From a virus: a stretch of DNA of 27,075 nucleotides. The stretch spans positions 1 through 27,075 of IMG/VR virus record IMGVR_UViG_3300006923_000100; one strand, written 5' to 3'. Made by a program: the position numbers and the translations under genes. Every line of letters starts with the position of its first letter. Position 1 is the first letter of the stretch. This document shows, one piece after another, positions 12,954 through 26,639 of the stretch. The notes beneath the pieces were generated by a model. It saw only the letters and a program-made list of their open reading frames with translations. It did no database searches and had not been told where the DNA came from.

Positions 12954-13838
12954 TCACTTTTTCAATTTAGAACATTTATCAAAATGGTATCTTTTCATGT
13001 TAGGGCCCCTGCCTGTAAAATTACAGTGTGGACAAGTATGTTCAGTTCTAACTATTTTGAATTTAATTCTGCCTTTGCTATATCCACTAGGAATATTATG
13101 CGATGGTACTCTTAAATTTTCTTTGCCATTATTAACCCAAATTGTACCCCTAGTTGGATTATTTTCTTTCATCCACTTGGAATGTGCTTCAGCACAACCC
13201 CTTTCTTTATATACAATTTTAGATTTATCTATATTTTCGTAAAATTCTTTTTTATTTTCTTTTTTCCATTTAATTACAGATTCTTTTATTTTCTGCCTTG
13301 TTTCTGGCCGTTTAGAACTATTATTATCACCACTATTTTTAGCACCAATTCGCTGATATCCAGTTAAACCATCTTCTCCAATAATATTCATAGTATTTTG
13401 TGTTTTCTTTGTTCTTTGTTTAACAATATCTGGATTATCTTTATATGTCTGCTTTACTTTAATGTTTGAATTTTCTTGTATAGTTAATCCATTTTCACAC
13501 ATAATCTGCTTTCTAGTTTTTGCTCCAGCTAAAGCTTTGGTATATGGATCTGAAGCGCCAAGGTTTGCTTTATTCATACATCGGTCATGATGAAGAAACT
13601 TCTTTATTACTCTAGTTTCCCATAGTTGTGTTTTAATAGGGCAATCAAACTTTTTTCGTATTTCATAAGTAAAATCATCTTCACCATATTTTTCTATTAA
13701 CTCATTTACAGTTTTGCTGGATGTAAAATAAGTAGCCCACAAATCAGCAAATTTAGCAGTTTCACTATATCTTGAACCATAATAAAATAAACCTGTAGTC
13801 TTATTTACTATTAAATACGTATAATTCTCTCTGGTCAT
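12954..13838 (-). CDS. GIY-YIG-type homing endonuclease with C-terminal zinc finger (294 aa)
   Basis: The N-terminus is a divergent GIY-YIG domain (TYLIVNKTTGLFYYGSRYS, then EKYGEDDFTYEI, then WETRVIKKFL carrying the conserved Glu). The middle is rich in Lys/Asn with NUMOD-like DNA-binding repeats, then IWVNNGKENLRV. The C-terminus is a zinc finger, CPHCNFTGRGPNMKRYHFDK then C. Such free-standing enzymes cut a related genome lacking the gene and spread by repair. It lies between a small gene and the topoisomerase gene and splits no recognisable coding frame. Its ribosome site is inside a hairpin that also encloses a late promoter. Confidence 0.85.
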   Translation of the reverse strand: MTRENYTYLIVNKTTGLFYYGSRYSETAKFADLWATYFTSSKTVNELIEKYGEDDFTYEIRKKFDCPIKTQLWETRVIKKFLHHDRCMNKANLGASDPYTKALAGAKTRKQIMCENGLTIQENSNIKVKQTYKDNPDIVKQRTKKTQNTMNIIGEDGLTGYQRIGAKNSGDNNSSKRPETRQKIKESVIKWKKENKKEFYENIDKSKIVYKERGCAEAHSKWMKENNPTRGTIWVNNGKENLRVPSHNIPSGYSKGRIKFKIVRTEHTCPHCNFTGRGPNMKRYHFDKCSKLKK

Positions 13839-13844
13839 AATTAT

Positions 13845-13909
13845 AACCCCCTATGTATATTGGTATAATTATTTATATTTTTAATTATTTCCAATGTACA
13901 TTAGGGGTT
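13845..13909 (-). promoter_or_regulatory. Hairpin hiding the endonuclease Shine-Dalgarno
   Basis: Arms at 13845-13863 and 13891-13909 match at 16 of 19 positions, and in the minus-strand RNA one mismatch becomes a G-U pair. The 3' arm contains AGGGGG, the ribosome site 8 nt before the ATG at 13838, paired with CCCC in the 5' arm. The 27-nt loop holds a TATAAATA late promoter. RNA read through from upstream would fold and block translation; RNA started in the loop would lack the 5' arm. Confidence 0.8.
13870..13877 (-). promoter_or_regulatory. T4-type late promoter inside the hairpin loop
   Basis: TATAAATA on the minus strand lies in the loop of the inverted repeat at 13845-13909. By T4 spacing transcription would start near 13864, after the 5' arm and just before the 3' arm, so the ribosome site AGGGGG stays free. 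This is the known design for late-only translation of T4 intron endonucleases. Confidence 0.75.
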
Positions 13910-13921
13910 GAATAATATAAT

Positions 13922-14125
13922 TTACTTATTAAGTAATGGATTACCGCGACAAATAGGAATACTATTATATGTCATGTTCTCTAAATCCAATTTATCATTT
14001 TTCAGGCCACAACCACCAATTGCTCTCGTTGCAGCTTCTTCCATATCACTGGCTACAACTGTGGCCATGTATGAATAATTTTCTTCCTGGCCCAGCCATA
14101 AATTATAAGTCTCTTTATACTTCAT
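13922..14125 (-). CDS. Hypothetical protein (67 aa)
   Basis: Not recognised. The sequence has the pattern of a small alpha/beta protein: YNLWLGQEENYSYMATVVAS is two likely strands and DMEEAATRAIGG a helix. A single Cys lies in each half. It overlaps the SH3-barrel gene upstream by 11 nt and is the last gene before the endonuclease insertion, with the inverted repeat beginning 12 nt past its stop. Confidence 0.7.
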   Translation of the reverse strand: MKYKETYNLWLGQEENYSYMATVVASDMEEAATRAIGGCGLKNDKLDLENMTYNSIPICRGNPLLNK

Positions 14126-14743: not shown

Positions 14744-15070
14744 CTATTCCTCTTTATTAATAATAGACTGAGACCATGCCTCAACTAATGATGGGATATC
14801 ATTTATTTTATATTCATCCTGCATAGCTGAGAATTTAGTTATATCCCATTCCAGCTCATTGAACATTTTGAATGTAGTTTTATCTTTAAAGGCATCTACA
14901 TTATAACCCAGGCCACCAAGATGTTGGATCATATTGACCTTTTCAGTTAATTCTTTAGTTATATCATTTATGTTTCCATTCATGATATCCATATATACAG
15001 AATAATCTTTTACTGGCGATAGATAAAAATCTAATTCGGATTCAGATATGTATTGTAAAAATGATTTCAT
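14744..15070 (-). CDS. Candidate packaged internal head protein (108 aa)
   Basis: The N-terminus MKSFLQYISE is followed by Ser and fits the capsid-targeting sequence of T4 internal proteins, in which a basic/aromatic decapeptide ends in I/L-x-E and is cut by the prohead protease. The remaining 98 residues are helical and slightly acidic (DITKELTEKVNMIQHLGGLG) and not recognised. It is coupled by ATGA to the gene upstream, and the pair is read from a perfect late promoter (15298-15305), as expected for a head protein. Three other genes at 22.6-26.6 kb begin alike. Confidence 0.65.
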   Translation of the reverse strand: MKSFLQYISESELDFYLSPVKDYSVYMDIMNGNINDITKELTEKVNMIQHLGGLGYNVDAFKDKTTFKMFNELEWDITKFSAMQDEYKINDIPSLVEAWSQSIINKEE

Positions 15071-22638: not shown

Positions 22639-23190
22639 TTAATTTAAATCTGATTTATAAACATATGCGCCTGAATCAGTCTCATATCGTGTATCACCAT
22701 TCTTTTGGTCAATTGATATAATCTTACCAACACGCTTTTTATTCTTTTTTGTATATGTGAGCTTATCGCCTACCTTATATTCAATTGCTTCCATGACATA
22801 AACTTCTTTGCTACCGAGCTTCTTCATTGCTTCTTTAGCAGCCGCTTTTAATGTACCTGATACGAACACTATTTCGTCATCGCTTGGATCACCCATTCTT
22901 TTTGTACTAAATGCCCAATTACCAGAACCTTTGGCTTTCTTGCCATGGACTCTTAAGTATCTATCGTGATTAATGCCTACCTTATATTCTTGCAGCGATT
23001 CTACTTTGATGGGCTTGCCGACAGGTTTGCCAGTCGATGTGACTTTTAGTAATGTTTTTGCACCCTGTGCCTTTGCCCATTTCATTGCTGCCTTTTGGTC
23101 TTTGTGTTTCTCTCGTACAGCTTCGCCATCTACTAGTATTTCCCAAAAACCCTGAAATGCTTCTGCTATAAATTGTTTAAATTGTTTCAT
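22639..23190 (-). CDS. Candidate packaged protein with SH3/KOW-like end (183 aa)
   Basis: It begins MKQFKQFIAE then Ala, a very good match to the T4 capsid-targeting sequence (IPIII begins MKTYQEFIAE then Ala), with cleavage predicted after residue 10. Two more possible sites, LQE (66-68) and VME (132-134), lie at domain borders, so it could be cut into pieces. The middle has WEILVDGEAVREKHKDQKAA as a small alpha/beta unit. The C-terminus (IEYKVGDKLTYTKKNKKRVG) looks like an SH3/KOW-type strand set. It is coupled by ATGA to the cytidylyltransferase gene. Confidence 0.7.
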   Translation of the reverse strand: MKQFKQFIAEAFQGFWEILVDGEAVREKHKDQKAAMKWAKAQGAKTLLKVTSTGKPVGKPIKVESLQEYKVGINHDRYLRVHGKKAKGSGNWAFSTKRMGDPSDDEIVFVSGTLKAAAKEAMKKLGSKEVYVMEAIEYKVGDKLTYTKKNKKRVGKIISIDQKNGDTRYETDSGAYVYKSDLN

Positions 23191-23777
23191 AAACCCATGC
23201 CCCGTTTTACTATTTTGAATACTTTGCTACCCATACTTTTTAATTTTGTGGGCAATCCTTTTATAAATAATTCTTCTTCATCTAATGATACTAATTGTCT
23301 CAATAATGATGCTGACATACCCTCTACACCATGTTTCTTTATGTATGCTTTTAGTTCATCTGCAGACATTGCTTTTAAGTCCGGGCCATCTTCATCCCTA
23401 TCACCTGATGATACAACTTCAAATTTATCAAAGTCCAATGAGAAATTACCATCCGCCTTAACATATTTGCCGAGGTTCTTTTTGAACTCTGGAACTCTAT
23501 CTGAGCCAGCGATAAGAGTAAATTCTTTTACACCTTCTTCTGACATCTGACCAGCAATTTGAAATAATGTTTTTAATGATGCATCAGTAGATATTTCAAG
23601 ATAAGGAAATGCTTTCTTTAATAGCATAGTCTTATCTTTGAATGACAGAGGATTCTTCTTTGGGTCTTGTGACGAAGAAGTAAATAGAATTGGAAGTGCT
23701 CCACGTTTCTTAGCTTCTTTAGCAAGAGTTTTCGCAAGCTTCTCGTGACCAATAGTCAATGGATTGAAACGAGTCAC
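23187..23777 (-). CDS. Cytidylyltransferase-like protein, 5' end disrupted (about 196 aa)
   Basis: The protein belongs to the nucleotidyltransferase fold of phosphopantetheine/nicotinamide-nucleotide adenylyltransferases. TRFNPLTIGHEKL holds the HxGH-type motif, and later are PILFTSSSQDPKK, LIAGSDRVPEF and SSGDRDEDG. The family usually opens with a strand such as VVxSFGR directly before FNP. Here VVVSFGR is present just upstream (23774-23863) but in another frame ending in TGA, so the frame given starts from a poor GTG at 23777. The gene is either broken or needs a frameshift. It follows an endonuclease gene that appears to have split its 5' end. Confidence 0.7.
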   Translation of the reverse strand: MTRFNPLTIGHEKLAKTLAKEAKKRGALPILFTSSSQDPKKNPLSFKDKTMLLKKAFPYLEISTDASLKTLFQIAGQMSEEGVKEFTLIAGSDRVPEFKKNLGKYVKADGNFSLDFDKFEVVSSGDRDEDGPDLKAMSADELKAYIKKHGVEGMSASLLRQLVSLDEEELFIKGLPTKLKSMGSKVFKIVKRGMGL

Positions 23778-23863
23778 CGTCCAAAAGATACAACAACGCG
23801 AGTATTTCCGCGGGCTATACTTTTGGACGGGCCCTCCTTTATGTAGTTTATAAAGTTTAACAC
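23774..23863 (-). pseudogene. Displaced N-terminus of the cytidylyltransferase
   Basis: A GTG at 23863 with AAGGA 9 nt upstream opens 29 codons beginning MLNFINYIKEGPSKSIARG and ending NTRVVVSFGR, then TGA. The last seven residues are the missing first strand of the cytidylyltransferase, and INYIKE then Gly fits a capsid-targeting cleavage site. The frame must shift by -1 at the TGA to enter the main reading frame. The GTG overlaps the end of the endonuclease gene. It resembles the 20-aa start at 24668-24730. Confidence 0.6.
23777..23830. promoter_or_regulatory. 11-bp perfect inverted repeat after a strong Shine-Dalgarno
   Basis: CCGTCCAAAAG (23777-23787) and CTTTTGGACGG (23820-23830) are perfect inverted copies with a 32-nt loop. 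On the minus strand the stem begins right after AAAGGAGGG and ends at the GTG at 23777. If folded, the stem would bring the ribosome site next to the GTG, as hairpins do at T4 gene 25. It also overlaps the frame break. Confidence 0.6.
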
Positions 23864-24627
23864 TTAGTTAATTCCTTACAATTATTAAAATGCCATCGTT
23901 GCATAGCACCATTAGCACCAATTTTTGAGCAATGTGGACATTTCAATTGTTTATGTTTCTTACCATAAAATGGATTATTTTTACCAGACATCTTTTTAGA
24001 TTTTAATCTGGTAGACTTAATTCCATTTTCCGTTTTATAAAATTCTTTTAGTGTATTGGAGCGTTTAATATTTTCTTGTATTATTTGTTCTGTTGTTTTA
24101 TTTTCAAATCTTTTTTTTGCTTCATTACTTAAATGTTTTTTAAGTTCTGGGTTATCCATTGCTGCTTTAGTTCCAGCAGATATATTCTTTTTGTGTTCTT
24201 CTGTTCTCTCATTTCCATAATTCCAATGTTTCTCTGCGGACCTATTTTTTGACATTGATAATTTTGCTTTATTTGTATGAGTCTTTCCATACATTCCATT
24301 TTTCTTGCCAGATATAGCTTTGCTTATTTTAGCATTTACTATTGGACCAAGGTTGCCTCCCTGTCCGCCGGATGCTAGATTATAATACATTTTATCTAAT
24401 ACTGCATTATGTTCTTTAATAAAATGTCTCTCTGCAATATCTAATTCATCTTTAGTATCATATACACCCAGTGTAGTTCTTCTAAAATTATTCTTTCCAT
24501 ATTTATCTATTGCAAGTTTAAGTATATCACCTGAGCCTAAATAATTAGTATCTTCCGTTCCAGTTTTTTGGCCAATATATTTTTTTTCATTTATTAAATT
24601 TTCTGTAATATAAATAAATCCGTACAT
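23857..24627 (-). CDS. GIY-YIG homing endonuclease with NUMOD3 repeats and zinc finger (256 aa)
   Basis: The N-terminal GIY-YIG nuclease domain is clear: GFIYITENLINEKKYIGQKT, then YLGSGDILKLAIDKYG, NNFRRTTLG and AERHFIKEHN with the catalytic Glu. Two NUMOD3-type DNA-binding segments follow (GKKNGMYGKTHTNKAKLS and GKNNPFYGKKH), then a C-terminal zinc finger (CPHCSKIGANGAMQRWHFNN then C). It lies between a 20-codon start peptide and the displaced N-terminus of the cytidylyltransferase gene, so it probably invaded that gene. Its start codon is covered by a hairpin next to a late promoter. Confidence 0.9.
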   Translation of the reverse strand: MYGFIYITENLINEKKYIGQKTGTEDTNYLGSGDILKLAIDKYGKNNFRRTTLGVYDTKDELDIAERHFIKEHNAVLDKMYYNLASGGQGGNLGPIVNAKISKAISGKKNGMYGKTHTNKAKLSMSKNRSAEKHWNYGNERTEEHKKNISAGTKAAMDNPELKKHLSNEAKKRFENKTTEQIIQENIKRSNTLKEFYKTENGIKSTRLKSKKMSGKNNPFYGKKHKQLKCPHCSKIGANGAMQRWHFNNCKELTKC

Positions 24628-24659
24628 CTTTATACCCTTTCACCAATGGTTATAAAGAT
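24626..24659 (-). promoter_or_regulatory. Hairpin covering the second endonuclease ribosome site
   Basis: Arms 24626-24637 and 24648-24659 match at 11 of 12 positions with a 10-nt loop. On the minus-strand RNA the 3' arm includes GGG of the Shine-Dalgarno and the A and T of the ATG, so read-through RNA would be closed to ribosomes. The late promoter at 24659-24666 would start RNA inside the 5' arm, leaving it too short to close. Confidence 0.75.
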
Positions 24660-24666
24660 ATTTATA
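24659..24666 (-). promoter_or_regulatory. T4-type late promoter before the second endonuclease
   Basis: TATAAATA on the minus strand lies 32 nt before the ATG at 24627 and overlaps the outermost base of the hairpin. By T4 spacing the start is near 24653, in the 5' arm, so late RNA would lack about half of that arm. It begins right after the stop of the 20-codon frame at 24668. Confidence 0.7.
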
Positions 24667-24667
24667 A

Positions 24668-24730
24668 TTATGATTTTTTCTGACCTCTTGCTATTTTGGC
24701 TTCTGTAACAAAATTAAGAAATGATTTCAT
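24668..24730 (-). pseudogene. 20-codon capsid-targeting start peptide, remnant of the interrupted gene
   Basis: The frame begins MKSFLNFVTEAKIARGQ and stops after 20 codons. FVTE then Ala fits the capsid-targeting cleavage site, and KIARGQ parallels KSIARGN in the displaced N-terminus at 23774-23863. Its ATG overlaps the upstream stop as TAATG, as a real gene start would. The best reading is the original start of the cytidylyltransferase gene, cut off when the endonuclease entered. Confidence 0.6.
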
Positions 24731-25409: not shown

Positions 25410-26639
25410 TTAACGATTACCAAATGATTGTGCTGCATTGAAGTTATTTCTACTAAAGGTTAGCCTGTCGACTAATTTTACAGCGCCTCCTGTTAGAACA
25501 TCGATCATGACGAAGCCCTCAGGCGTTGTAACTTCATACCCATCTGCCTTCTTGATAAATGTTGCCATTCCCTCAATCTTCTCTAACTGAGTTACTAACA
25601 TTTCTTTCGCGTCAATCATTGCTGATTGAATAGTATATAACAATATAAAGTCTCTTTCTGCTCTTTTGAGTTTCTTTACTAATTCTTGATGATTAGCAGA
25701 TTTCATATCCTTTGACTTTTGAGTCTTTACTTTATCTATTTCTTTCTGTGCTCTTGTATCTAGCCAATTGTAAAAATCTTTCATGTGTGCTTTAGGATTA
25801 GTGATACGCTGGCCTACTCTAATTCTAGCATTTACATGAGTTTGTACTAATAATTTCATTTGACTAGATTTAGCAAGTCCATCAAGGAACTTGAGATTTA
25901 ATTTCTTTACTAAACCTTCTATCTTTTTAATCTTTGTATTATATGCATTCGTTTCTCTAGCAGTCCACAGAGCATTATCTGATATACCAGGTATTGCTGC
26001 ATCCCGTACCCATACGTTCTTTGATTTTTTTAAAGAATTAATGTTGGCGCCAAAACTAGCAGACATAGACTCAAGCTGAGAGCCAGAGTAAGTAGTGTGA
26101 AAAACAATACCAAGCTTAGCAGAAGAAATTTCTTTATCCAAATCAGACCCAGCAGGAATTGCATACGCAATTGTATTGGGTTGAAATACTGAGTATTTTT
26201 GTCCATTTATTGTTTTGCTCTTGACGTCACCACTAGAGAACATCATATCGCCCTGCAGGATAGTTTTTATTCCCAGTGGCTTAAGATGCTTAAGAGCAAC
26301 TTTTAATTTATCTGCAAGGACTGGTGCGTGGCCATGGTTTTCGTCGATATCAGCATCAGTGTAATTTATCTTTGGAACTTTATTGAAAATTGATTTTGTG
26401 CCAACGAAGAATTGCTTTGTCTCTGGGTGCTCTCCGCAAAACACAGCAGGTGCGCCGTCCCACTTTAGAGTTAGTGAAGTATCATAACCTTCGCCGCCTT
26501 CCAGTTTTTCGCCAACTGATTTCAGCATACGTAGTGTTACTTTGATACCCTCTGAACCAAGCTCGAGGATATTCTCCTCAAGGTGAGTTAAATGCTTATT
26601 AATAGGTGCTTCTGTCAAAAACTGTAAAAATGATTTCAT
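25410..26639 (-). CDS. Ligase-like nucleotidyltransferase with capsid-targeting N-terminus (409 aa)
   Basis: Residues 1-10 are MKSFLQFLTE followed by Ala, matching the capsid-targeting sequence cut by the prohead protease. The rest carries, in order, motifs like those of the DNA/RNA ligase and capping superfamily: KWDG (K59-G62, the AMP-accepting Lys position), LQGDMMF (128-134, motif III), LGIVFHTTYSG (176-186, IIIa), EGFVMID (374-380, IV) and VKLVDR (387-392, V). A helical insert of about 150 residues separates IIIa and IV. In families with these motifs the Lys forms a covalent AMP or GMP adduct. The combination suggests a packaged ligase-like enzyme. The function is inferred, not shown; families of unknown function in marine T4-like phages look similar. 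Confidence 0.7.
   Translation of the reverse strand: MKSFLQFLTEAPINKHLTHLEENILELGSEGIKVTLRMLKSVGEKLEGGEGYDTSLTLKWDGAPAVFCGEHPETKQFFVGTKSIFNKVPKINYTDADIDENHGHAPVLADKLKVALKHLKPLGIKTILQGDMMFSSGDVKSKTINGQKYSVFQPNTIAYAIPAGSDLDKEISSAKLGIVFHTTYSGSQLESMSASFGANINSLKKSKNVWVRDAAIPGISDNALWTARETNAYNTKIKKIEGLVKKLNLKFLDGLAKSSQMKLLVQTHVNARIRVGQRITNPKAHMKDFYNWLDTRAQKEIDKVKTQKSKDMKSANHQELVKKLKRAERDFILLYTIQSAMIDAKEMLVTQLEKIEGMATFIKKADGYEVTTPEGFVMIDVLTGGAVKLVDRLTFSRNNFNAAQSFGNR

Follow-up and report, generated by a model that had tools for sequence, protein, structure and literature searches.

A mechanism combining a late promoter with an RNA hairpin over the Shine-Dalgarno (SD) sequence has been described for the endonucleases I-TevI, I-TevII, I-TevIII, segB and Aeh1 mobE (PMC2988022, PMC3014915). 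It is established for I-TevI, and has also been described for the T4 genes e, soc and 49 (PMC2988022, PMC3014915). The T4 late promoter is an 8-bp TATA box placed about one helical turn upstream of the transcription start (PMC2988020). Here we describe a gene of an uncultured T4-like phage, HEG1, whose start region is very probably a T4-type switch timing the expression of a free-standing GIY-YIG homing endonuclease.

The sequence analysed (the window) is a 27,075-bp IMG/VR fragment encoding T4-type topoisomerase subunits and a T4-type RNase H. The large topoisomerase subunit shares only about 41% identity with its closest sequenced relatives. Contig IMGVR_UViG_3300025133_000428 overlaps the window from position 13934 on with ~99.9-100% identity, represents the same virus and reaches 17.6 kb beyond it. 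This extension encodes a gp45-like clamp, a clamp loader, a RegA-like repressor and a DNA polymerase interrupted by a third GIY-YIG endonuclease. The T4-like topoisomerase, RNase H, clamp, clamp loader and RegA-like genes were counted in favour of a T4-type switch. On the other side, no gene was identified as gp55 or gp33 by general annotation of the window and the extension, both records being fragments. The near-identical contig stops exactly at window position 13934, adjoining the HEG1 hairpin, and this end might reflect strain variation at the HEG1 insertion. Several unrelated genes of this phage begin with N-termini resembling MK(S/T/Q)F..(F/Y)..E (window 14744-15070, 22639-23190 and 25410-26639, minus strand; L136 1112 and 2758), perhaps a common targeting peptide judging from the sequences.

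HEG1 matches the homing endonuclease family PHROG 314 (1.6e-7) and, at 22.1 bits and thus below the curated cut-off of 25, the Pfam family SegE_GIY-YIG (1.9e-4). Its best PDB fold match is the catalytic domain of I-TevI (1mk0/1ln0; Foldseek probability 1.00, E 0.02-0.06), obtained with a structure model of modest confidence (mean pLDDT 60). These matches indicate that HEG1 carries a GIY-YIG catalytic domain, and we regard it as a predicted homing endonuclease. No Rfam hit to a group I intron was obtained around the endonuclease genes. The gene ends about 16 nt ahead of the topoisomerase ORF; in a search for the empty site, a scan of viral_contigs revealed no relative of this topoisomerase neighbour. 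No DNA-level relative was found outside the same virus, and none was near enough for covariation. The features of the locus, and of a second endonuclease gene discussed below, are listed in Table 1.

Table 1. Features of the HEG1 and HEG2 start regions and their neighbours (window coordinates).
Feature	Position	Strand	Basis
HEG1, predicted GIY-YIG free-standing homing endonuclease ORF, 294 aa, ATG start	12954..13838	-	PHROG/Pfam/Foldseek
Shine-Dalgarno AGGGGG, 8 nt before the ATG (13838-13836)	13847..13852	-	sequence
Hairpin 3' arm, including the SD	13845..13871	-	fold
Predicted late transcription start, 6 nt past the motif	13864..13864	-	inferred from T4 late promoter geometry
T4-type late promoter motif, perfect TATAAATA, at the hairpin apex	13870..13877	-	sequence + fold
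Hairpin 5' arm, upstream of the promoter and so missing from the predicted late RNA	13882..13909	-	fold
Small same-strand gene upstream of HEG1	13922..14125	-	ORF list
HEG2, second predicted GIY-YIG/NUMOD3 homing endonuclease	23857..24627	-	Pfam + PHROG
HEG2 hairpin over the start codon, with arms of 15 nt that are 87% complementary	24626..24659	-	fold
TATAAATA of HEG2, 39 nt before the ATG, distance as at HEG1	24659..24666	-	sequence

All switch signals of HEG1 are on the minus strand, which the preliminary description had left unstated. In the direction of transcription the order is the small gene (14125-13922), the hairpin and HEG1 (13838-12954), the stop codon of the small gene being about 13 nt ahead of the 5' arm. 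Since this same-strand gene ends at 13922 and no terminator-like site was found between it and HEG1, read-through RNA is implied, with the small gene as its source. The upstream promoter "P4", to which such RNA had been attributed, was not confirmed: sigma-70-like matches are weak and only mildly in excess of those in shuffled sequences (53 vs 36 +/- 7).

The hairpin consists of 24 pairs between 13845 and 13909 and buries the AGGGGG SD, the predicted duplex of which with the anti-SD has an energy of -10.5 kcal/mol. Positions 13909-13903, 13901-13897, 13895-13891 and 13888-13882 pair with 13845-13851, 13853-13857, 13859-13863 and 13865-13871, respectively, interrupted by single mismatches (13902/13852 and 13896/13858) and a two-to-one bulge (13890-13889/13864). 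An optional five-pair extension at the base, 13916-13912 with 13840-13844, comes within one base of the ATG. RNA folding and shuffling thus bear out the reported combination of hairpin, SD and promoter motif: in 2000 shuffles of the 60 nt preceding HEG1 the observed folding energy was never reached, and dinucleotide shuffles of the plus-strand sequence at the hairpin gave z = -4.4 (0/200). The earlier account gave a "19-nt inverted repeat", which roughly fits the lower stem, although the stem runs seven pairs further. It had placed the ribosome site under the repeat, and the SD does sit in the 3' arm; the perfect TATAAATA, said to be in the loop, is mostly there, with its last two bases paired in the top helix. 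Two Rfam matches on the hairpin are to miRNA families, far under their gathering scores, and were discarded.

From the geometry of T4 late promoters, we place the late start of HEG1 near 13864, in agreement with the position originally proposed. At the sequence level, TATAAATA is placed so that the predicted late RNA excludes the whole 5' arm (13882-13909). Over the window and the non-overlapping extension of the second contig, 7 of the 19 copies of TATAAATA are located 20-45 nt before a same-strand gene start, where 0.36 are expected (Poisson p 1e-7). The motif is found upstream of all three GIY-YIG endonuclease genes of the phage (at -39, -39 and -30) but of only 4 of 65 other genes (p 7e-4). 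This non-random placement suggests that the phage uses TATAAATA as a promoter motif. Separately, the gene of the RegA-like translational repressor (L136 11982-12418, minus strand) exhibits TATAAATA 38 nt upstream of its start.

We computed the energy required to open the region from -18 to +13 around the start codon, and applied the same calculation to T4 genes. For HEG1 the predicted opening energy is 19.4 kcal/mol in the read-through RNA, where the stable hairpin sequesters the SD, vs 6.1 kcal/mol in the predicted late RNA starting near 13864. The corresponding values are 16.3 and 5.0 kcal/mol for T4 I-TevI, and 19.0 and 5.8 kcal/mol for T4 segB; the energetics of HEG1 are like those of these two genes. 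The SD is more open for all predicted starts 3-8 nt after the motif, so that the outcome is independent of the exact start. The coupling at HEG1 was lost when the sequence upstream of the promoter was shuffled (p = 0.00 of 100). The late leader is predicted not to be fully open: it retains a weak GGUUAU/AUGACC hairpin over the AUG, which is unpaired at about 8%, with a whole-leader minimum free energy (MFE) of about -5 kcal/mol.

In the mechanism that we propose, early and middle RNAs would read through from upstream same-strand genes and contain both hairpin arms; the SD would then be buried and little endonuclease made. After activation of the late transcription machinery of the phage, RNA would start near 13864 from the apical TATAAATA, lack the 5' arm and expose the SD, so that HEG1 would be translated. 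We infer that early RNA reads through, that late RNA is initiated at 13864, and that translation is low early and high late. Anatomy, opening energies and comparison with T4 agree, and lend good in silico support to the I-TevI-type switch put forward in the preliminary description.

The closest counterpart is T4 I-TevI, like HEG1 (and I-TevII) a GIY-YIG endonuclease. In I-TevI, as in I-TevII and I-TevIII, the SD is buried in read-through RNA and the late RNA lacks the 5' arm, and the predicted opening energies of I-TevI and HEG1 are nearly equal. However, I-TevI is intron-encoded whereas HEG1 is free-standing, and the I-TevI promoter AATAAATA itself forms the 5' arm, whereas the main 5' arm of HEG1 is upstream of its apical promoter. 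T4 segB shares with HEG1 a free-standing GIY-YIG endonuclease, a late promoter and a hairpin over the SD and AUG, besides the similar energies, but is located in the T4 tRNA cluster and has its promoter CATAAATA within the 5' arm. By its description, Aeh1 mobE is likewise a free-standing endonuclease with an RNA hairpin sequestering the SD (PMC2988022, PMC3014915), though of the HNH family and inserted in nrdA. The T4 lysozyme gene e has the late promoter TATAAATA inside the segment that encodes the 5' strand of an inhibitory hairpin (PMC3014915); unlike HEG1, it is a lysis gene involving no mobile element. The proposed HEG1 switch is accordingly the known I-TevI design in a new phage, and the apical promoter is a geometric variation only.

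The case for the full switch is convincing at HEG1; at HEG2 the switch is probable, and at HEG3 it is doubtful. HEG2 matches NUMOD3 (1.6e-12), SegE_GIY-YIG (5.2e-7) and PHROG 314 (7e-35). Its TATAAATA leads directly into the AUG-covering hairpin, the predicted late start being inside the 5' arm, and the opening energy is 12.1 kcal/mol in read-through RNA vs 5.5 kcal/mol in late RNA. This hairpin is weak, with a stability within chance (403/2000 shuffles). HEG3, in the neighbouring, overlapping contig, has TATAAATA and little structure (8.4 vs 1.7 kcal/mol).

Both genes have conspicuous surroundings. HEG3 lies between the 514- and 307-aa parts of a DNA polymerase gene (L136 5795-9292, minus strand), as in Aeromonas phage 25. 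Downstream of HEG2 (window 23760-23860, minus strand), the frame INYIKEGPSKSIARGNTRVVVSFGR ends at a TGA, and about 8 nt further the conserved cytidyltransferase sequence continues in another frame (FNPLTIGHEKL). The junction coincides with the 3' foot of a hairpin, the most stable one in the window, whose 5' foot carries AAAGGAGG and whose 3' foot carries a GTG. Possible readings of the junction are a frameshift scar left by the HEG2 insertion, a hairpin-bridged start as in T4 genes 38/25, or a short bypass. Just ahead of HEG2 (window 24680-24730, minus strand), a 20-codon ORF, MKSFLNFVTEAKIARGQKKS, looks like the 5' end that is missing from the cytidyltransferase gene located after HEG2; from this resemblance, it seems that this part of the gene was either split or duplicated by HEG2.

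We surveyed related IMG/VR loci for endonuclease ORFs with a matched N-terminus and for TATAAATA within 60 nt of the start; HEG1, HEG2 and HEG3 entered as W, L089 and L162, respectively. The motif is near the start of 17 of 138 endonuclease ORFs vs 14 of 625 other ORFs (p 2.6e-6). Late initiation is also predicted to increase accessibility more in endonuclease genes (median gain 7.1 vs 2.4 kcal/mol, p 0.012), and pre-start RNA is more strongly coupled with the initiation region there (p 0.01). These p-values are indicative, as related loci are not fully independent, three of the entries are genes of the present phage, start codons were picked by rule and a few controls likewise exhibit strong hairpins (L145). 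Counting cross-pairs in single MFE structures did not distinguish the endonuclease genes from the controls (p 0.11 and 0.43); the energy-based measures separate them moderately. The control set is not clean: L121:2176, first a control, resembles a GIY-YIG ORF and was later moved to the endonuclease set. Clear hairpin cases with unrelated arm sequences are L053, L058, L024 and L183; L044, with a short SD-pairing stem, is weaker. The hairpins of other phages are often cut off by the predicted late start. As their architecture is common but their arm sequences differ, the design has either been repeatedly re-evolved or diverged beyond recognition.

The gene entered as L145 (L013 1705-1735; MATPTTRTEFKNYCLRELG...), with no Pfam hit and no endonuclease match, exhibits TATAAATA followed by a very strong hairpin over its start (22.3 vs 5.0 kcal/mol). 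Judging from this switch-like layout, genes other than those of endonucleases may have the switch as well.

Besides the T4-type switch, the inverted repeat of HEG1 might be mainly a DNA operator, through which binding of the endonuclease, or of some other protein, would repress the late promoter, much as in the documented autorepression of I-TevI (PMC2988022). The promoter is at the centre of the repeat, and folding of the repeat is more favourable on the opposite strand (-28.6 vs -24.4), a point counting against the RNA switch because purely sense-RNA selection would not predict it. The GIY-YIG ORF L121:2176 moreover has a similar hairpin and apical promoter but no SD in the arm. An operator resembling the homing site was nevertheless rejected, as the promoter region is no more similar to the insertion flanks, where such an operator would be expected to have its counterpart, than shuffled sequences are. 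The 3' arm also coincides with the SD and begins right before the ATG, as RNA sequestration requires, and the hairpins of other phages vary in geometry yet still cover the SD or AUG. We therefore consider an operator as the main role of the repeat to be unlikely.

Still less likely, the hairpin could be an intercistronic terminator, or a processing or stability element in the RNA of the upstream gene, with incidental SD overlap. Its start so close after the upstream stop codon would fit this role, but the terminator was rejected for lack of a T-run after the stem; no terminator-like site was called there, and the perfect apical TATAAATA and the SD in the arm would be left unexplained. It is just as improbable that TATAAATA is a chance match without a late start, with the hairpin simply holding endonuclease translation permanently low. 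The AT-richness of the region and the location of 12 of the 19 motif copies outside the 20-45 nt before gene starts would fit, but the copies are concentrated in that interval far above expectation, with one at each of the three GIY-YIG endonuclease genes.

Returning to the T4-type switch, one may speculate, at rather long odds, that its apex-promoter form recurs across uncultured T4-like phages (HEG1, L053, L121, possibly L183 and L240). The 5' arm, unconstrained by the promoter, would re-evolve around each SD, transposed endonucleases would each gain a late-only switch, and the repeat may also act as a DNA operator. What is very probably the endonuclease timing switch of T4 occurs in a distant uncultured T4-like phage, clearly at HEG1 and more weakly at HEG2. 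Our survey suggests that a late promoter is present at many phage endonuclease genes, often within a start-site hairpin of unrelated sequence, which supports repeated selection for delaying selfish nucleases.
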